From a virus: a stretch of 25,538 nt of DNA. The notes beneath the pieces were generated by a model, which was given only the letters and a program-made list of their open reading frames with translations, searched no databases and was not told where the DNA came from. Location: the IMG/VR virus record IMGVR_UViG_3300044911_000639, positions 1 to 25,538 of that record. The stretch is one strand, 5' to 3'. The position numbers and the translations under genes were made by a program. Below, piece after piece: positions 9,904 through 22,936 of this stretch. The stretch's first letter is position 1. Every line of letters starts with the position of its first letter.

Positions 9904-10039
9904 AATACAGGCAACTTCGTTACCTGTTTAGGGATGTAACGGGTAACGCTTAGGTTAGGGGCCACCAAGTAATCCGTACCTACCGCAGGGGCGGTACGGA
10001 TCTAGTGACCAGTAACTAGTTGCGACGACAGGAGCTAAT
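9904..10039. promoter_or_regulatory. Divergent control region between late and early strands
   Basis: This gap separates the minus-strand packaging genes from the plus-strand early genes, so it should hold at least two outward promoters. It contains GTAACG on the minus strand at 9918-9923, and on the plus strand at 9936-9941 and 9943-9948. CGTTACC (9918-9924) and GGTAACG (9942-9948) form an inverted pair. A 9-bp hairpin pairs 9972-9980 with 9993-10001. A second hairpin, 9981-9986 with 9991-9996, would compete with it. CTAGT/ACTAG (10002-10006, 10015-10019) follows. No clear sigma-70 promoter is visible. GGAG at 10031 is the ribosome binding site for the first early gene. Confidence 0.5.
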
Positions 10040-10752: not shown

Positions 10753-11086
10753 AAACATATTCTGACCTGCAGGGATCGTATTTAGAAACACGACAATACC
10801 CGCACTGTGACCATTGTCACCACAGTATATACATCCATCCCGATTTGGCTATACCCCAATGTATCTTTTCTCTTGTTTTGGCGTACGGGCACCCATGCTG
10901 GGGGGTGCATGATGACACGCAACGACATGAATATGCCCATATAACAGTTCCTGCTCAACAGCCTGTTTTCTCGTGCCATCTAGGGTGTAACAGATGTGCA
11001 ATACAACACTAGTGCGCTCACAAGAGTAGACATCAAGTGTTGGTGTTGCATGGTTGGTATCTGTTGGGTAGCAAATCACAAACCAA
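10753..11086 (+). other. 334-base stretch with no clear gene; possible start-less Cys/His-rich ORF
   Basis: No open reading frame with an ATG or GTG start and a ribosome binding site is seen here. One plus frame stays open from 10743 to a TAG at 11010-11012, and would read a Cys/His-rich chain (YPHCDHCHHSIYIHPDLA near its first third, CHLGCNRCAIQH at its end). It lacks ATG, GTG or TTG near its beginning. Either it starts at a rare codon or it is the remnant of a broken gene. The part after 11013 leads into the first palindrome and should contain the promoter or leader of the 11128 gene; no convincing -10/-35 pair is visible. Confidence 0.4.
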
Positions 11087-11111
11087 AAAGTGGACAACAG
11101 TTGTCCACTTT
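11087..11111. promoter_or_regulatory. Palindrome copy 1 (TGGACAA-N3-TTGTCCA)
   Basis: This copy has 12-bp arms around a single central A. It ends 16 bases before the ATG of the 11128 gene and directly precedes its ribosome binding site. It is one of five matching sites, all in gaps of the early region. The seven-base core arms are invariant between copies, as expected for a dimeric protein site. Confidence 0.8.
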
Positions 11112-11127: not shown

Positions 11128-11595
11128 ATGGAAACGAAAGTTAAAAGCAATATCAACTACGAAACCGTTCAGAAAGCGGTTGCGAAAAATGCAAAAGAGA
11201 AAATGCAATTAATCATTTTCTTGTACAAGACATGGGCGAAAGAGTCTGACCGACTCGCTTCGTTGCCTGAGAACCCGTTCGGCGCAACAGGTTTCACTGT
11301 TGGCAAGTTCATTGCTGAATGGTCTAAGACATTGGAATACGAACACCAAAAAGCTTTGGCAGTTTCGTTCAAGAAGCGCATTGAAGAGATGCATCGTGTT
11401 GCATTGAAAGGCATTGATATCAACAAGATCCTTGATACGAAAATGCTTGCTGAGAATGCGTTGCTTAAAACGCCTGCTGTTAAGCCTGCTGTTAAGCCTG
11501 CCAAGGTTGGCACTGTGAATGCCTTGTTCAACACCAAGGAATTCAAGGCTTTGCCTGCTGATGTTCGTAAGGCAATCAAGGCTTCGGTCAAGTAA
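11128..11595 (+). CDS. Unknown helical early protein
   Basis: This 155-residue protein is mostly helical and rich in Lys and Ala. After METKVKSNINYETVQKAV it has a long helix region, a low-complexity linker near residue 115 (KTPAVKPAVKPAKVG) and a C-terminal segment NTKEFKALPADVRKAIKASV. No known domain is recognised. ATG at 11128 follows AAAGGAAAAAAA. A long upstream in-frame extension would run through the palindrome and is rejected. It lies alone between palindrome copies 1 and 2, so it may be a separately controlled unit. Confidence 0.7.
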   Translation: METKVKSNINYETVQKAVAKNAKEKMQLIIFLYKTWAKESDRLASLPENPFGATGFTVGKFIAEWSKTLEYEHQKALAVSFKKRIEEMHRVALKGIDINKILDTKMLAENALLKTPAVKPAVKPAKVGTVNALFNTKEFKALPADVRKAIKASVK

Positions 11596-11596
11596 T

Positions 11597-11619
11597 AACT
11601 GGACAATAGTTGTCCACTT
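11597..11619. promoter_or_regulatory. Palindrome copy 2
   Basis: TGGACAA (11600-11606) and TTGTCCA (11610-11616) flank TAG. The arm extends outward with a C-C mismatch at 11599/11617 and then A-T pairs. It starts just after the stop of the 11128 gene and ends directly before the first hammerhead ribozyme. Confidence 0.8.
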
Positions 11620-11622
11620 TTA

Positions 11623-11937: not shown

Positions 11938-12291
11938 ATGTTCAAATATATTTTGTGGCTTGGGTCATCGGTGCTTTGCGCCTTTGGCTTTACTGCCATG
12001 CTCCAGCGATTGTTGCTTGTTCCCGAACACCGTGAACGAGCACGCTATCGCAACTCGTTTCACGATCACAGTTCTCATGATGACTTGGAGATCATTCTTG
12101 ACGACGACATGTGTTTGTTTCATTGGCGAACTGATTGCGTGTGTTTTGATGCGCCTGTTGTGATTGCAGATGTACACGATCCGTATGAGGTTGTGTTGCC
12201 GTTTCACCAACGCATTGAGCCACCTGATTGGGTTGATGGTTGGGTTGCACCGCAAGTGAAGTGGGTTGTGAAACCTAAAGTTAATAAGTAA
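11938..12291 (+). CDS. Membrane-anchored protein of unknown function
   Basis: This 117-residue protein starts with a hydrophobic helix (about residues 3-27: MFKYILWLGSSVLCAFGFTA and on) with few charges before it, consistent with a signal anchor. A charged His/Asp-rich stretch follows (SFHDHSSHDDLEIILDDD), then a domain with CLFHWRTDCVCF and a Trp-rich end (PPDWVDGWVAPQVKWV). No family is recognised. ATG at 11938 follows CGAAAGG, 9 bases upstream, in the 3' product of HHR2 cleavage. It ends at palindrome copy 3. Confidence 0.65.
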   Translation: MFKYILWLGSSVLCAFGFTAMLQRLLLVPEHRERARYRNSFHDHSSHDDLEIILDDDMCLFHWRTDCVCFDAPVVIADVHDPYEVVLPFHQRIEPPDWVDGWVAPQVKWVVKPKVNK

Positions 12292-12312
12292 GTGGACAAT
12301 AGTTGTCCACTT
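12290..12312. promoter_or_regulatory. Palindrome copy 3
   Basis: AAGTGGACAA (12290-12299) and TTGTCCACTT (12303-12312) flank TAG, a perfect 10-bp arm pair. It overlaps the end of the 11938 gene and abuts the first base of the structured leader at 12313. Confidence 0.8.
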
Positions 12313-12383
12313 TGCGTAGCCATGCGTGGCTTGTTCGGGTTCAATTCCCGACTACGCACTACCGAATACAATCCCGTATCGGT
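12313..12383 (+). ncRNA. Structured leader RNA A with tRNA acceptor/T-arm-like half
   Basis: P1 TGCGTAG/CTACGCA (12313-12319 with 12352-12358, 7 bp) encloses a small CCA-TGCG-TGG hairpin (12320-12329) and P3 TCGGG/CCCGA (12335-12339 with 12347-12351) with a 7-base loop TTCAATT. P3 joins P1 directly, exactly as a tRNA T-arm joins the acceptor stem, and the loop fits the T-loop pattern. No anticodon arm is present. P4, ACCGA(A)TAC pairing with GTATCGGT (12361-12383), has one bulged A. A second copy at 13565-13650 keeps P1, P3 and P4 with changed bases. The leader ends before GAAAGG of the 12404 gene. Confidence 0.7.
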
Positions 12384-13086: not shown

Positions 13087-13539
13087 ATGATCACAGAAAA
13101 AGATTCATTGATCACCTTGCAAGGTGGTGGCGTTTATACCGCCGAAAAACTAGGGCGTAATTGCCAAGCCATTTACATTGTGAACCGTGATGCACCTGAT
13201 GATTTGGGTGGCGCAATGGTTTCTATGTTTTTGCAAATCAACCAAGACTCTTACGGTCATACACAATTTGGTTTGTTGCCTGTATTGCTTGAGGTCAAGA
13301 GCGTGGAATATCATGATCGCAACTTCAACCTTGGCACATATGGTGTGACTGACACATTTGTCTTGATGGGTCACGCTGTCAATCTTGCGTTAGAAATGAC
13401 AAGTCTCGCTGGCGAAAAATCGCCCGTGACTTTTCTTAAGAATGATTGCGCTATCTATGTGATCAACGAGAACGGTACGACAGAGAGCACGATGTGTTCT
13501 GTGTATTCGTACATGGCAGAGCGAGGTTTCCCGTTCTGA
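13087..13539 (+). CDS. Unknown early protein, alpha/beta
   Basis: This 150-residue protein has mixed strands and helices: SLITLQGGGVYTAEKLGRNC, a QAIYIVNRDAPDDLGG stretch, then TQFGLLPVLLEVKSVEY. It has four Cys but no zinc pattern. No family is recognised. ATG at 13087 has the strong ribosome binding site AGGAGGA nine bases upstream. It is the last gene before palindrome copy 4, which overlaps its stop codon by one base. Confidence 0.65.
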   Translation: MITEKDSLITLQGGGVYTAEKLGRNCQAIYIVNRDAPDDLGGAMVSMFLQINQDSYGHTQFGLLPVLLEVKSVEYHDRNFNLGTYGVTDTFVLMGHAVNLALEMTSLAGEKSPVTFLKNDCAIYVINENGTTESTMCSVYSYMAERGFPF

Positions 13540-13565
13540 AAAGTGGACAATAGTTGTCCACTTTT
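13539..13565. promoter_or_regulatory. Palindrome copy 4
   Basis: This is the longest uninterrupted copy: 12-bp arms (13539-13550 with 13554-13565) around TAG. It begins on the last base of the 13087 stop and runs into structured leader B. The A-rich left and T-rich right flanks make it look like a weak two-way terminator as RNA, but the other copies lack a T tract. Confidence 0.8.
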
Positions 13566-13669: not shown

Positions 13670-14920
13670 ATGCCTACAGATAATGTCAACATAGAGTTAG
13701 ATGAGCCCGAGGAGATTGAACTCTGCTTTTTTACGGGTGTCGTCCTGACAGACGAAACCCTTGAAAACGAGTTAGTTACATTCCGTCGTGACGCCGCATT
13801 TACATGGGACGCAACGACAATGAACTATGGGTATCGTCATGACCAGGAGTATGTCAATTACACCAACGAAATCGTTGATGGTCAGTATGTCGTTTACCTC
13901 TGCGAGGAATGCGACAGCTACTATCATCATGCGTTGTACAACACGGACAATGATCGTTGCACTAGTTGCAATGACAGTTACAGCGAGTGTCGTGATTGCG
14001 GTACGGAAGTACATGATGACGAGTCGTATCGTGACGATGATGGTGATCCGTATTGTGAGAATTGCTGGCAAGAGTCGGACTACAATCCTGACAACCAACA
14101 ATCACGAACGATTCAGTCGTACTCGTATCGCCCGACTCCTGTTTTTGGTTGGGTTGTTGAGTCAAAGTTGATTCGTGGTTTAGGTGTGCCTCGTGCAATT
14201 CAAAGCGAACCAATGTTTGGTTTTGAGTTGGAGACCAACGCTCGTGACCGTAGCACTATCAACGATGCAAGTGCCTTTCTTTTGGGTGAGTCACCCGAGG
14301 AATACTTGTACAACAAAGAGGACGGTTCAATCTCAGGGTTTGAGATTGTTACGCACCCATTCACTTTGGAGGCACACAAGATGTTGCTACCTCGTCAAGC
14401 AATTGCCAAGTTGTCATCGCAGTATTCGTTGTCATCATGGTCAAGTGTCAATGGCACAGGTGCTGGGCTTCATGTGCATATCAGCAAGAAATCTTTTGCT
14501 GGTTCTGCTCACCAGTTCCGTTTCCAAATGTTTCACTACCGAAACAGTGACTTCATTAAGAAGTTCGCAGGGCGTGACAGTGATCGTTGGGCGTCGTTCC
14601 GTCGCACCACTGAGCGTGGTGACTACGGCTACGATGACATGGTTGAAATCTGCAAAGGTAATCGTGTGCAGAACAACCGTTACAGTGCGTTGAACTTTCA
14701 GAATGCCAACACCATTGAACTTCGTTACTTCAGAGGTTCGCTTCGTCCCGAAACGGTTCTCGGTGTTCTTGAGTTCTGCCACTCTGTCCATAAGTACACC
14801 AAGTTGCTGACTGCAAAAGAAGTCATTGACGGTTGCTTGCAGTGGGGGTCATACAAGATGTGGCTTGCCGATCAGAACTACGAGTTCCTTCCATCAGTCC
14901 TCGCATCTCGTTGCGTGTGA
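13670..14920 (+). CDS. Amidoligase-family enzyme with N-terminal zinc ribbons
   Basis: This 416-residue protein has two parts. Residues 78-132 carry eight Cys in CxxC pairs (78/81, 97/100, 107/110, 129/132), consistent with two zinc sites. Residues 183-360 match the glutamine-synthetase-like amidoligase pattern (Pfam 'putative amidoligase'): FGFELE (183-188), DGSISGFEIVTHP (218-230), GAGLHVHIS (264-272) and RYSALNFQNANTIELRYF (337-354). Such enzymes use ATP to join carboxyl and amino groups; Glu and His residues in these motifs should bind metal-ATP. The substrate is unknown. The next gene is a class II glutamine amidotransferase, which could supply ammonia or process the product. ATG at 13670 follows AAAGGAG. 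Confidence 0.8.
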   Translation: MPTDNVNIELDEPEEIELCFFTGVVLTDETLENELVTFRRDAAFTWDATTMNYGYRHDQEYVNYTNEIVDGQYVVYLCEECDSYYHHALYNTDNDRCTSCNDSYSECRDCGTEVHDDESYRDDDGDPYCENCWQESDYNPDNQQSRTIQSYSYRPTPVFGWVVESKLIRGLGVPRAIQSEPMFGFELETNARDRSTINDASAFLLGESPEEYLYNKEDGSISGFEIVTHPFTLEAHKMLLPRQAIAKLSSQYSLSSWSSVNGTGAGLHVHISKKSFAGSAHQFRFQMFHYRNSDFIKKFAGRDSDRWASFRRTTERGDYGYDDMVEICKGNRVQNNRYSALNFQNANTIELRYFRGSLRPETVLGVLEFCHSVHKYTKLLTAKEVIDGCLQWGSYKMWLADQNYEFLPSVLASRCV

Positions 14921-14979
14921 CATATCCTTATCCCTACAACCAATTACAACCAACAACAAAACAGAAAGGACACATCAAA

Positions 14980-15933
14980 ATGTGTTTGTTAATATTAGCC
15001 AAGGGCGGTTCAACGCCTTCCAAGAAATCACTACGCCGAGCAGGTCAGGCTAACCCCGATGGGTTCGGCTTTGCCATTGTCGGCAACAACAAGATTCACA
15101 CTTACAAGAGTATGGATCTTGAGGACACCATCGGAAACTTTTACGATATGCGTGATCGTTTCCCTAAAGGCAATGCAATCTTTCACTTGCGTATCACTAC
15201 GCATGGTGTAACTGACATCAACAACTGTCACCCGTTCCAAGTGAACGAAGATTTGGTGATGGGTCACAACGGTATGTTGCCTATCAAAGCAGAGAACGGC
15301 AAGAGCGATACAAACTTGTTTGCTACCGAATGGTTACCTGAGTTTGACATGGCTGACTTGCTTGACACGCAGGCTGGTGTTGATGAACTCAGCAAGTTCG
15401 CTAGCGGTAGCAAACTTGCGTTCCTCAATACGAGTTCACATCTTGCCAAGCCGTTCTACATCATCAACGAACACCTGGGTCATTGGAAAGACGGTGTGTG
15501 GTACAGCAACTCGTCATACAAAGAGACGGTGTGGTATCCATCGCACTCGTATGGTTCGTATGGCAGTTCATACACGCCGACAAAGACGACATCTATGAGT
15601 GACTACGAGAAGTACAACATTCGTAGCCATTGGGACGATGAGGATTTGTTTGCTGAGGACATTGCTGACGACAATGATTTCTTGTGTGACACTTACATTG
15701 CTCGCACATGGAAAGATGGCGATCTCATGTACGATCACATTGAAGGTACATGGGTTCACCCCGATGACGCACATGAGATCTCTGATCTTGTTCAATGGGA
15801 ATGTCATACCTGCCACGAGCAAGTGATCTTTGATTTGCTCAATGACAGTGTTGATCTATGTTCCGAATGTGGAACCTGCTACTTTTGTGACAACAACTCT
15901 GATGCATGCAATTGCTACATCGCTGAGAAATAA
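14980..15933 (+). CDS. Class II glutamine amidotransferase-like Ntn hydrolase with zinc-ribbon tail
   Basis: This 317-residue protein begins MCLLILAKGG; Cys2, exposed after Met removal, is the nucleophile of this family. Further family motifs are NPDGFGFA (25-32), HLRITTHG (69-76), NCHPF (82-86), MGHNGML (94-100) and SDTNLFA (109-115). The last 47 residues add a Cys-rich module (ECHTC, CSECGTCYFC, CNC) that probably binds zinc. The enzyme would release ammonia from glutamine or cut a gamma-glutamyl amide. ATG at 14980 is chosen because it puts Cys at position 2 and has an AAAGGA site; a longer reading upstream overlaps the amidoligase. It is paired with that gene across a 59-base gap. Confidence 0.85.
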   Translation: MCLLILAKGGSTPSKKSLRRAGQANPDGFGFAIVGNNKIHTYKSMDLEDTIGNFYDMRDRFPKGNAIFHLRITTHGVTDINNCHPFQVNEDLVMGHNGMLPIKAENGKSDTNLFATEWLPEFDMADLLDTQAGVDELSKFASGSKLAFLNTSSHLAKPFYIINEHLGHWKDGVWYSNSSYKETVWYPSHSYGSYGSSYTPTKTTSMSDYEKYNIRSHWDDEDLFAEDIADDNDFLCDTYIARTWKDGDLMYDHIEGTWVHPDDAHEISDLVQWECHTCHEQVIFDLLNDSVDLCSECGTCYFCDNNSDACNCYIAEK

Positions 15934-17661: not shown

Positions 17662-17678
17662 TACAGTAACCAATAAAA

Positions 17679-17699
17679 ACTGGACAACAATTGTCCACT
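17679..17699. promoter_or_regulatory. Palindrome copy 5
   Basis: TGGACAA (17681-17687) and TTGTCCA (17691-17697) flank CAA. As in copy 2, the next base outward is C on both sides, so the arm breaks there. It ends 17 bases before the ATG at 17717 and directly precedes the ribosome binding site, the same layout as copy 1. Confidence 0.8.
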
Positions 17700-17716
17700 C
17701 TCACAAAGGAAAAAGA

Positions 17717-19454: not shown

Positions 19455-20494
19455 TGAGCCTTGAGGACTTCGCATCAAAATGGGAAGCGTTGAAAGCGGG
19501 GGGCGAAAGCCCCCCGTCCTCACTTCCCGAACAAAAACAAATGCATTACTACAGACCATTAGAGGAAGCCGCCGAAGAGTTTGTTCGTTGGGCGCAGTCA
19601 CCACATGAGCGTATCTACACAGGGTTCAACGACCTTGACCGTGAGATGCGTGGCATTGCGTCAGGCGAGATGTGCAACATCATCGGCTACAGCCACAGTG
19701 GCAAGACATTGGTTACATTAGAGATACTTAAAGCGAATCAGAATAAGAACGTGGTTTACTTCGTCCCTGACGAACCACGCACACTCGTTCTCATCAAGTT
19801 GGCTTGCGTAACTCACGGTGTCAACGCCATAGATCTTGAGCGTTCAATCGCTCAGGACGACGCTGGTGCTATTGATCTGCTCAAGCAGACAGCCAACGAA
19901 CACTTCCCCAACCTTGCCGTGTTTGATCAGCCTATGGCTTTATCGGACATGGAGAAATCAATGAGCGAAGTGTCAAGCATGTGGGGTCAGAAACCTGACC
20001 TCATCGTGTTTGACTACCTAGAACTATTGCAAGGTGGAGGAGAGGATGTCGCTTCTAAGGCCAACACACTCAAAGCATGGGGACGACGACATGATGTCCC
20101 ACTCATTGCTCTACACCAAACATCAAGAACATCGGGTGCTGATGGTAAACGTATGACCATCTCATCAGGTGCGTTCGGTGGAGAACAGCAAGCGACACAC
20201 ATCATTGGTGTGCGTCGCAAACGTTTTGAGATTGATGCACAGATACGTGAACTTGAAACCAAGCTTGACAAGTCGTCAGCGTCCGAACGGGCGATGGAAC
20301 AACTTGACAACCTACGTTACGAGGCTCGTATCCACACCCACACACTCACACTCAACCTGGTCAAGAACAAGCGTCCAGCAGGCAACCTCATAGATGACAT
20401 TGACTTTGAGATTGAGCAAGGCACAGGACGACTAACAAGACTGAGCGAGGGTGAACTGCCCTCGCAGTTCCTACGTGAGGCTCGCCATGACTAA
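19454..20494 (+). CDS. DnaB/RecA-type replicative helicase ATPase
   Basis: This 346-residue protein has Walker A GYSHSGKT (78-85) after a GFNDLDREMRGIASGE lead-in typical of DnaB/RadA-type ATPases. Walker B is LIVFDYLELL (183-192), and a motif HQTSR (221-225) resembles the sensor segment ALHQ. The C-terminal THTLTLNLVKNKRPAG segment carries the Lys/Arg finger region. The usual DnaB N-terminal domain is absent, as in many phage helicases. It should unwind the fork together with the primase encoded next. ATG at 19454 is preferred over 19451 because the AAAGG spacing is better; both overlap the previous stop. Confidence 0.85.
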   Translation: MSLEDFASKWEALKAGGESPPSSLPEQKQMHYYRPLEEAAEEFVRWAQSPHERIYTGFNDLDREMRGIASGEMCNIIGYSHSGKTLVTLEILKANQNKNVVYFVPDEPRTLVLIKLACVTHGVNAIDLERSIAQDDAGAIDLLKQTANEHFPNLAVFDQPMALSDMEKSMSEVSSMWGQKPDLIVFDYLELLQGGGEDVASKANTLKAWGRRHDVPLIALHQTSRTSGADGKRMTISSGAFGGEQQATHIIGVRRKRFEIDAQIRELETKLDKSSASERAMEQLDNLRYEARIHTHTLTLNLVKNKRPAGNLIDDIDFEIEQGTGRLTRLSEGELPSQFLREARHD

Positions 20495-21389
20495 CGAACT
20501 AGATGACGTACTCGCACAGTACATCGCCTTGTTCCGTGGTCGTGGAGACGCATACGGGTCGTGGGACGGTGGCTGTATCAGAGAACCACTAACCGACGAC
20601 ACATTCAGACAGCACCTATTTGGTGACACATTTGTAGGCGTATATCCATGCGTGTACTACAAAGGTGAAACGAAATGCGTGTGGGGTTGCACAGACATTG
20701 ACTATGACAACCCTGATGAAGCGTGGATGCTCCATGACGCATTCGAGTCAGTCGGTGTCAAGTCCTGGGTGGAACGCACAAGGCGTGGCTACCACATTTG
20801 GGTGTTCGCAACAGAACTTGTACCCGCATCAGAGATGCGACGCATGTTCCTAGCCGCCCATCAAGTCACAGGACTCAACCCTAAAGAAGTGAATCCCAAA
20901 CAGGAGACACTTAACGCTGGACAACTAGGTAACTATGTTCGTCTCCCCTATCCAAACGACAACACAGGGCAACGCATGATGGTCAACCGTGACCTCACAA
21001 CAATCCCCTTGTCGTCGTTCCTTGAGGAAGCACACAAGCATCTAGTGTTATCGGAAACGATCACACGATTGGCTGACTATTATCAGCCTCCAGTAATTAC
21101 ATACACGGTGTCCGCACCGTCTCATGACATGGCTGAGTCTGCACGACGACTCACACCACTAGGTCGTACCATCTTTAGAGATGGCCCGATTGAAGGGCGT
21201 GACAGGTCAACCACACTCACACATCTAGCCCACGAATGCAGAAAAGCGAACCTCAATCCCGAGGACGCACTATCAATATTGGAGGATGCTGATTTACGAT
21301 GGGGAAAATACATGATGAGGGGCGAAGCGGGGATACTGGAACTTCAGAAGTTACTGGTACGAGCGTACGGTCACATTCAATCTACATAG
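20487..21389 (+). CDS. AEP-superfamily DNA primase (prim-pol type)
   Basis: This 300-residue protein shows the archaeo-eukaryotic primase signature of phage and TOTE-type primases. It has a strand ending GVYPCVYY, the catalytic DID (70-72) inside CTDIDYD, then ERTRRGYHIWVF (96-107) with the conserved His103, then NPKQ (136-139) and NYVRLPY (149-155). A helical C-terminal domain from about residue 245 (STTLTHLAHECRKANLNPED and on) resembles a PriCT-type module. It would make primers for replication with the adjacent helicase. ATG at 20487 overlaps the helicase end by 8 bases and has a GAGG site. Confidence 0.88.
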   Translation: MTNELDDVLAQYIALFRGRGDAYGSWDGGCIREPLTDDTFRQHLFGDTFVGVYPCVYYKGETKCVWGCTDIDYDNPDEAWMLHDAFESVGVKSWVERTRRGYHIWVFATELVPASEMRRMFLAAHQVTGLNPKEVNPKQETLNAGQLGNYVRLPYPNDNTGQRMMVNRDLTTIPLSSFLEEAHKHLVLSETITRLADYYQPPVITYTVSAPSHDMAESARRLTPLGRTIFRDGPIEGRDRSTTLTHLAHECRKANLNPEDALSILEDADLRWGKYMMRGEAGILELQKLLVRAYGHIQST

Positions 21390-21712
21390 AGGGACGACCA
21401 CACCCAAAGGAACGTCCACGAGCAACAGCCAGGAACGGTAAAGCGTTCATGTACACACCAGCCAAAACTGTTGACGCTGAAAAGAAAGTAGCGCAAGCAT
21501 GGGATGGGCCTGTGTTTCACGGTGAAGTCGCAGTCCACATTGTCGTAGACAATGAAGGAACTGCGGTCATCGTAGAACGTGTGGACATTGAAACCAAATC
21601 ATCTTTGCGTGGCGACATAGATAACTATGTCAAAACGGTTCTTGATGGTTTGAATGGTGTAGCATGGTTAGACGACAAACAAGTCGTAAAGATTGTGGCG
21701 ATAAAAGCATGA
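21299..21712 (+). CDS. rusA: RusA-family Holliday junction resolvase
   Basis: This 137-residue protein has the RusA pattern. The basic KERPRATARNGKAFMYTPAK segment is at residues 37-56. RGDIDNYVKTVLDGLNG (104-120) and WLDDKQVV (123-130) supply the conserved acids D106, D108, D116 and D125/D126 and the Lys that make the nuclease site. It would resolve branched replication intermediates before packaging. The start at 21299 overlaps the primase end by 91 bases; no later in-frame start codon precedes the conserved domain, so this long overlap is real or the start is a rare codon. Confidence 0.87.
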   Translation: MGKIHDEGRSGDTGTSEVTGTSVRSHSIYIEGRPHPKERPRATARNGKAFMYTPAKTVDAEKKVAQAWDGPVFHGEVAVHIVVDNEGTAVIVERVDIETKSSLRGDIDNYVKTVLDGLNGVAWLDDKQVVKIVAIKA

Positions 21713-22173
21713 GCACTTACAAAAATCAGCCTTGGTCATCACGAATTAAAACGATGGGCGACACCGCCGAAACAGCGTTTGAATCAGTCCACCCCGAAGC
21801 ACACCGACTAGGAATGTTACGACCCTCGTTTGACACACGAGGCATGCGTGACACCATGCGGTACGCCCCCGACTACATGCTCCCTGACGGGCTGTATGAA
21901 GTCATGGGTTGTGCATCACGAGGAGACAGCCTACTCAAGACACGCTTTGACAAACTGACATCAATGTCAGTATGGCAAGCAGTCGGGCCAGTGAACTTGT
22001 GGATTTGGGATTCAAGTAAGAAACGTTATTGGGTAGCACCACTCAATGATTGGATTAAAGCCTTTCATAAGTTTGGTGAAGTCGCAAGATTCCCTGACAA
22101 CAACAAACCTTACTTTGCTTTACACATCAACTACTTCCCTACAGAACCGATTAAGCATGACATACAACCTTGA
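21709..22173 (+). CDS. PD-(D/E)XK-like protein of unknown function
   Basis: This 154-residue protein carries RYAPDYMLPDGLYEVMG (about residues 51-67), which has the PD...E pattern of restriction-like nucleases. The usual E-x-K ends as E-V-M, so the Lys is missing and may be replaced by the later LLKTRFDKLTSM. A strand-helix end follows (VNLWIWDSSKKRYWVA). Similar proteins occur beside RusA genes in actinobacterial phages; I regard a nuclease or degenerate nuclease as possible, not proven. ATG at 21709 overlaps the RusA stop (ATGA) and has no ribosome binding site of its own. Confidence 0.6.
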   Translation: MSTYKNQPWSSRIKTMGDTAETAFESVHPEAHRLGMLRPSFDTRGMRDTMRYAPDYMLPDGLYEVMGCASRGDSLLKTRFDKLTSMSVWQAVGPVNLWIWDSSKKRYWVAPLNDWIKAFHKFGEVARFPDNNKPYFALHINYFPTEPIKHDIQP

Positions 22174-22936
22174 TCTATTCGCATCTACACCGATTACAGA
22201 TGGAGATTGGTTACTGCAATTCGGAGAAGCACCCGACCTGCAGGACACTGATCATATCCACGCTGTCATAGAAGCAATTGAGCAACTGTCACCGCAATCA
22301 AAGTTCTGTATTGAAGCTATTTTTTATGAACGTATTCCATTCAGTGAACTTGGTGGACGCCTTGGCGTGAGTAAACCTCACGCTTGGCGTCTGTCTAATA
22401 AAGCAATGGAAGAATTACGCAATCTACTATCAACCAACAAAGTCTTAAACGAAAGGTACAACATGTTTTCCAATTGGAACGAAGCAGTGTCATCAGTAGT
22501 CCTAAACTTTCACAACGTTTCAGAGAAACGTAAAGTTGAAATCAGCGAACTAGACAAGTATGTTCAGAACATGTGGAACTATTCCCGTGACCTCGTGTAC
22601 GAAGAAGCAACATTCATGGACGTCAACGACCTCGGTCGCCTAGCAACATCACACCTGAAATCAATTGGTGCGTGGGATCTACACGCAACCATTGATTTGC
22701 TTGTCAAGAAACAACACGACTACGGTCACAACAACATTCTAGGATTCGGTTTACTTGGATTATGTATCCGCATCTCAGATAAGATTGCACGACTGGTTTC
22801 GTTGGAGAAGCGTGGCTCTAAGCCACATAACGAATCAGTCATTGATACTTGGACTGACATTGTTGGTTACGCATCAATTGCAAAGATGTTAGAAAACGGA
22901 ACATTTAAACTTGAACTGGAGAACACCAATGACTGA
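22157..22936 (+). CDS. Sigma region-4-like HTH fused to Nmad1/DUF1599 domain
   Basis: This 259-residue protein has two parts in one frame. Residues 43-92 (EQLSPQSKFCIEAIFYERIP, then FSELGGRLGVSKPHAWRLSN) match the sigma-70 region 4 helix-turn-helix. Residues 104-255 match the nucleotide-modification-associated domain 1: KKQHDYGHNNILGFGLLGLC, then RISDKIARLVSL, NESVIDTWTDIVGYASIAKM. A well-placed internal start, GAAAGG then TACAAC then ATG at 22463 (Met103), separates them, so a short C-terminal product is likely too. The HTH part could steer RNA polymerase, while the other part may serve nucleotide metabolism. No stop codon lies between. Start ATG at 22157 lacks a strong ribosome binding site. 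Confidence 0.75.
   Translation: MTYNLDLFASTPITDGDWLLQFGEAPDLQDTDHIHAVIEAIEQLSPQSKFCIEAIFYERIPFSELGGRLGVSKPHAWRLSNKAMEELRNLLSTNKVLNERYNMFSNWNEAVSSVVLNFHNVSEKRKVEISELDKYVQNMWNYSRDLVYEEATFMDVNDLGRLATSHLKSIGAWDLHATIDLLVKKQHDYGHNNILGFGLLGLCIRISDKIARLVSLEKRGSKPHNESVIDTWTDIVGYASIAKMLENGTFKLELENTND

Follow-up and report, generated by a model that had tools for sequence, protein, structure and literature searches.

Some phage endolysins are encoded by single genes that give two polypeptides from one frame, the full-length protein and a C-terminal product begun at an internal start; production of both has been demonstrated, as has, in one case, their 1:5 assembly (PMC9430671). Among phage transcription regulators, T4 gp33 is a sigma-4 mimic and late co-activator, a small protein that replaces sigma domain 4 although its sequence has no discernible similarity to sigma factors (PMC2988020), and the late regulators RinA and Ltr of staphylococcal phages stand alone (PMC13123087). 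The gene described here resembles the endolysin genes in its single frame and internal start, and gp33 in carrying a counterpart of sigma domain 4. However, the endolysins come from phages of Gram-positive bacteria, whereas here a DNA-binding domain is joined to DUF1599 and the two products are predicted. Moreover, gp33 has no DUF1599 fusion, while the HTH found here has a clear region-4 sequence with a conserved recognition helix and, unlike RinA and Ltr, is fused. The HTH-DUF1599 pairing is new; its parts are of known kinds and the coding trick is known.

The gene lies in the IMG/VR virus record IMGVR_UViG_3300044911_000639, which was analyzed over its whole length of 25,538 bases (the window). 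The relevant features are as follows.

21299..21712, plus strand: RusA-type Holliday junction resolvase (PF05866, 3e-17), a regular neighbor
21664..22173, plus strand: upstream ORF, PD-(D/E)XK nuclease-like by eye only, overlapping the fused gene by 17 nt; a similar neighbor is present in relatives and in phage MW202803
22157..22936, plus strand: fused gene of 259 amino acids, region-4-type HTH plus DUF1599/Nmad1 (open frame; Pfam and PHROG matches; fused in 84 of 160 loci)
22274..22423, plus strand: sigma-70 region 4 domain, residues 40 to 89 (PF04545, E 1.3e-6; AF2 pLDDT of ~93; VIA-align Z 11.1)
22451..22456, plus strand: internal Shine-Dalgarno (SD) sequence GAAAGG, including the AGG codon of Arg100 (biased Arg codons at this column)
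22463..22936, plus strand: predicted second product, DUF1599/Nmad1 alone, 157 amino acids, from an internal ATG (start and SD kept by 24 of the 37 fused clusters; coincides with where the stand-alone DUF1599 gene begins in split relatives)
22709..22882, plus strand: DUF1599 core, residues 185 to 242 (PF07659), with the motifs KQ-DYG..N, R..DK..R, and E..D...D in invariant alignment columns

The initial annotation had read this region as a region-4 HTH and an Nmad1/DUF1599-like domain in one frame, and both the frame and the domain names were borne out. Positions 22157 to 22936 form a single unbroken frame of 259 codons plus a stop, within which both domains are matched. The Sigma70_r4 match scores 28.3 bits, above the curated cut-off of 24.1. 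For the C-terminal domain, the DUF1599 profile (nucleotide modification associated domain 1) gives an E value of 2.4e-4 and 21.8 bits, slightly below the cut-off of 25, and PHROG 1485 matches residues 180 to 246 with an E value of 2.5e-13. Across 84 family rows comprising fused and separate proteins, DUF1599 was matched in 74 and Sigma70_r4 in 49, and the relative in MW202803 exceeds the DUF1599 cut-off at 27.4 bits. A Pfam search with the upstream gene gave no match.

Scans of viral contigs yielded 159 loci (160 with the window), among which some contigs are represented twice. Both domains share one ORF in 84 loci (window included; 77 distinct records), a separate HTH gene adjoins a DUF1599 gene in 13 (11 distinct), and DUF1599 occurs without this HTH in 63. 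Grouping the fused proteins at 80% identity gave 37 clusters. The DnaB-like helicase of the window was found at 57 to 85% identity in all 17 of the contigs tested, both fused and split, indicating one phage family; the phages that bear the fusion are of roughly 40 kb. In the window, a TOTE/AEP-type primase (PF22548, 5.3e-18; 20487 to 21386) adjoins this helicase. The annotated phage collection held no record matching more than 80% of the fused protein, and scans of genome contigs for a host found no relative. More distant HTH genes lie directly upstream of DUF1599 in L026, L027, and GenBank phage MW202803. In the last of these (MW202803.1, 17347 to 18292), neither gene of the pair is annotated, and the terminase is 52% identical to that of the window.

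Because a second contig (L001) carries an identical copy of the gene and the fusion is retained down to ~30% identity, across 37 clusters, it is due neither to chance nor to a sequencing error that removed a stop codon. The dN/dS ratio is ~0.07 in the HTH half and likewise in the DUF1599 half; both are under purifying selection. As judged by sequence comparison, the gene fusion is real and old.

The relatives also indicate how it may have arisen. The split versions that the initial annotation suggested looking for were found, as overlapping or abutting HTH and DUF1599 genes. Overlaps measure 17, 11, 4, or 1 nt and other pairs abut, so that one small indel or stop loss is enough to fuse the genes. 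In L150-L152 the two genes are in the same frame, separated by a TAA that is followed at once by an ATG, and are thus one TAA away from fusion, which supports the loss of a stop codon as a route. Locus L139 reads GAAAGGTACAAACTGTGACC, with the GTG of the DUF1599 gene overlapping the HTH stop; the stretch GAAAGGTAC before this GTG recurs in the GAAAGGTACAACATG of the window. In the DUF1599 tree, fused and split states interleave, and well-supported branches force at least two changes, each of which could have gone in either direction.

Such ease of fusion raises the possibility that DUF1599 is an independent nucleotide enzyme to which the HTH was joined as a near-neutral accident of overlapping genes, with internal initiation maintaining the enzyme supply. 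In keeping with this, DUF1599 lacks this HTH in many phages (the 63 loci above, and crAss-like and Methylophilales phages), and the HTH in turn exists without DUF1599: a search with the HTH found 49 loci with no DUF1599 nearby. In 16 HTH-only contigs DUF1599 was absent from the whole record, though records may be fragments; the same search was positive in 5 of 5 control records. Most of the HTH-only loci inspected share the gene order of the window: RusA, nuclease-like gene, HTH, small gene, opposing late genes. The HTH-only relatives L251-L300, which mostly have the same neighbors, carry the recognition motif (S/T)K(P/T)HAWR. On the other hand, a fusion that 37 clusters retain, and in which purifying selection acts on both halves, is more than drift would suggest, and we consider an accidental joining possible but somewhat improbable.

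The initial annotation had pointed to a good ribosome binding site and an ATG at 22463 at the beginning of the second domain; GAAAGG does lie 6 nt 5' of this ATG. The upstream ATG at 22157, within the 17-nt overlap with the preceding gene, has no SD of its own. We scored a junction start as an ATG or GTG no more than 4 codons from the junction with an anti-SD duplex dG of -4 kcal/mol or lower, and took as background 8,917 ordinary zones of nine codons drawn from other genes of these loci. Such a start was present in 24 of the 37 fused clusters, compared with 10.1% of background zones, and at a dG of -6 or lower in 19 of 37, compared with 4.9%; the binomial P values for these comparisons exaggerate the strength of the signal, because the clusters are related. 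When a single row was kept per lineage, 12 of 16 retained the start. The median SD strength was -7.0 in the native sequences and -1.95 in synonymous recodings that followed the codon usage of the loci (Fisher's method over 14 lineages, P = 1.8e-5).

Codon choice at the junction agrees with these values. At residue 100, Arg is encoded by AGG in 10 cases, AGA in 7, and CGA in 1, while the other Arg columns contain 53 AGR codons out of 251 (P = 3e-10, ignoring relatedness). Where the start column encodes Val, the codon is GTG in 7 of 9 cases, against a background of 29%; of the two exceptions, L108 carries an ATG three codons upstream. Within the window's clade of ten, residues 100 to 102 fall in the strongest peak of synonymous conservation in the gene; with all 37 clusters taken together, the junction is not a peak of codon conservation. 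Designs at the junction differ between lineages. The start at the junction itself is lost in the clade of L010, L012-L014, L136, L149, and L156, several members of which have an SD and an ATG 11 to 12 codons upstream of the junction, and it is lost in L100.

These features could also mean that the full-length fusion is the sole product and that the SD-like AGG and AGA codons of the linker either remain from the split state or form a slow stretch of rare codons that aids domain folding. AGG and AGA are indeed minority Arg codons here, and some fused clusters lack the start. Yet Lys, Gly, and Glu codons also build the SD (L011, L140, L153, L119), GTG is favored among the Val codons of the start column, and a relic would be expected to decay in lineages diverged to 30% identity. 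We therefore regard a single full-length product as quite improbable.

We favor the reading that this is an old fusion from which two proteins are made in one frame, HTH-DUF1599 and DUF1599 alone, and put its probability at roughly 70%. The comparison lends good support to the internal ATG as a start for a second product, and the conserved internal start with its ribosome site is what would be looked for in an in-frame two-product phage gene; the model is patterned on phage endolysin genes that contain an in-frame internal start (PMC9430671). At the upstream start, an overlap of 8 to 17 nt with the stop of the previous gene is usual and a weak SD is frequent, which suggests translational coupling. 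Ribosomes coupled from the upstream gene would produce the 259-residue HTH-DUF1599, and those entering at 22463 would produce the 157-residue DUF1599 alone.

Structure prediction was in agreement with the region 4 assignment. The AF2 model of the fused protein, built from the 84-row alignment, had a mean pLDDT of 88.7 and a pTM of 0.80. Residues 27 to 101 adopt the sigma region 4 fold: VIA-align matched them to the SigL -35 domain (3hug_G) at 1.8 A over 73 residues, and to many other sigma region 4 structures with Z scores of 8 to 10. Thus, the HTH belongs to region 4 by both profile and fold, and relatives exist in which it is not a separate gene, contrary to the circumstances under which the initial annotation would have abandoned its reading. 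Several of the best-conserved HTH positions (K73, H75, W77, and R78) are in the recognition helix, which makes a conserved DNA target likely. In the split relative L018, the NCBIfam RinA model is matched weakly, below its cut-off (E 3.8e-4).

The region 4 profile and fold would also be expected of a phage sigma factor. Against this, the protein has no match to region 2 (core RNA polymerase and -10 binding), region 3, or other sigma domains, and the HTH is preceded by only ~30 residues, most of them modeled with low confidence; we reject this identity as extremely improbable. Judging from its sequence and predicted fold, the likeliest role of the HTH is that of a stand-alone region-4 regulator, and it is plausible that a factor consisting of region 4 alone would act together with host polymerase. 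We tentatively propose that this regulator cooperates with the host RNA polymerase or acts at -35-like DNA, and that DUF1599 subunits with and without the HTH arm coassemble, the internal starts keeping the arms in the minority.

The DUF1599 part, modeled alone (pLDDT 93.3), is a six-helix bundle. A profile search for solved relatives returned only designed proteins, and Foldseek returned nothing below an E value of 0.07. The best fold matches were all-alpha dUTPases (Z of ~6) and a MazG-like protein (Z of 5), which may be chance for helical bundles; the Campylobacter dUTPase 1w2y, at Z 6.1 and 4.0 A over 119 residues, is within that chance range. With hhalign, alignment of DUF1599 to dUTPase_2 and MazG gave a probability below 1%, and the dUTPase-MazG control also failed (6.7%). 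A literature search found no tested activity for the DUF1599/Nmad1 family. The invariant K, D, R, and E residues could bind nucleotide and metal; nucleotide binding or cleavage is a guess from the family name and the weak fold likeness, and nucleotide sensing or pyrophosphatase activity would be a further conjecture.

The initial annotation had also suggested GTAACG as a possible site of the regulator, and this suggestion was not supported. GTAACG occurs 19 times in the window, compared with 10.1 expected, a count reached by 1 of 100 shuffles; a longer motif common to the sites was sought and not found. A conserved cluster that precedes the small terminase gene is only a lead on this question. 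There, in the window (9904 to 9960) and in L161-L219, a block AGCGTTACCCGTTACAT and a hairpin ACAGGTAACGAAGTTGCCTGT lie directly before the small terminase gene, between the early and late modules. Their 8-mers recur in 15 to 19 of 29 related regions, and no link of this block to the HTH was established. A palindrome, GTGGACAA(N)TTGTCCAC or nearly so, with a short T run, occurs five times between early genes (11078 to 11111, 11587 to 11620, 12280 to 12313, 13531 to 13564, and 17668 to 17701); these copies may be terminators or an operator. Elsewhere in the window (13670 to 15933), an amidoligase-like protein (PF12224) precedes an overlapping ORF that resembles class II glutamine amidotransferases (PF13230, under the cut-off).

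The related phages form a natural series, comprising the HTH alone, an overlapping pair, a same-frame pair with one stop, and a fusion with a retained internal start, which allows direct study of how neighboring genes fuse while keeping the second product. By a Rosetta-stone argument, the fusion points to a possible partnership of DUF1599/Nmad1, a poorly understood domain, with a transcription regulator. It is conceivable, though unlikely, that the gene encodes a nucleotide-responsive region-4 factor, in which DUF1599 subunits would assemble and act as nucleotide sensors, the minority of them that carry HTH arms would reach host RNA polymerase, and internal initiation would set the ratio. If this were the case, phage gene expression would be tied to the nucleotide pool.
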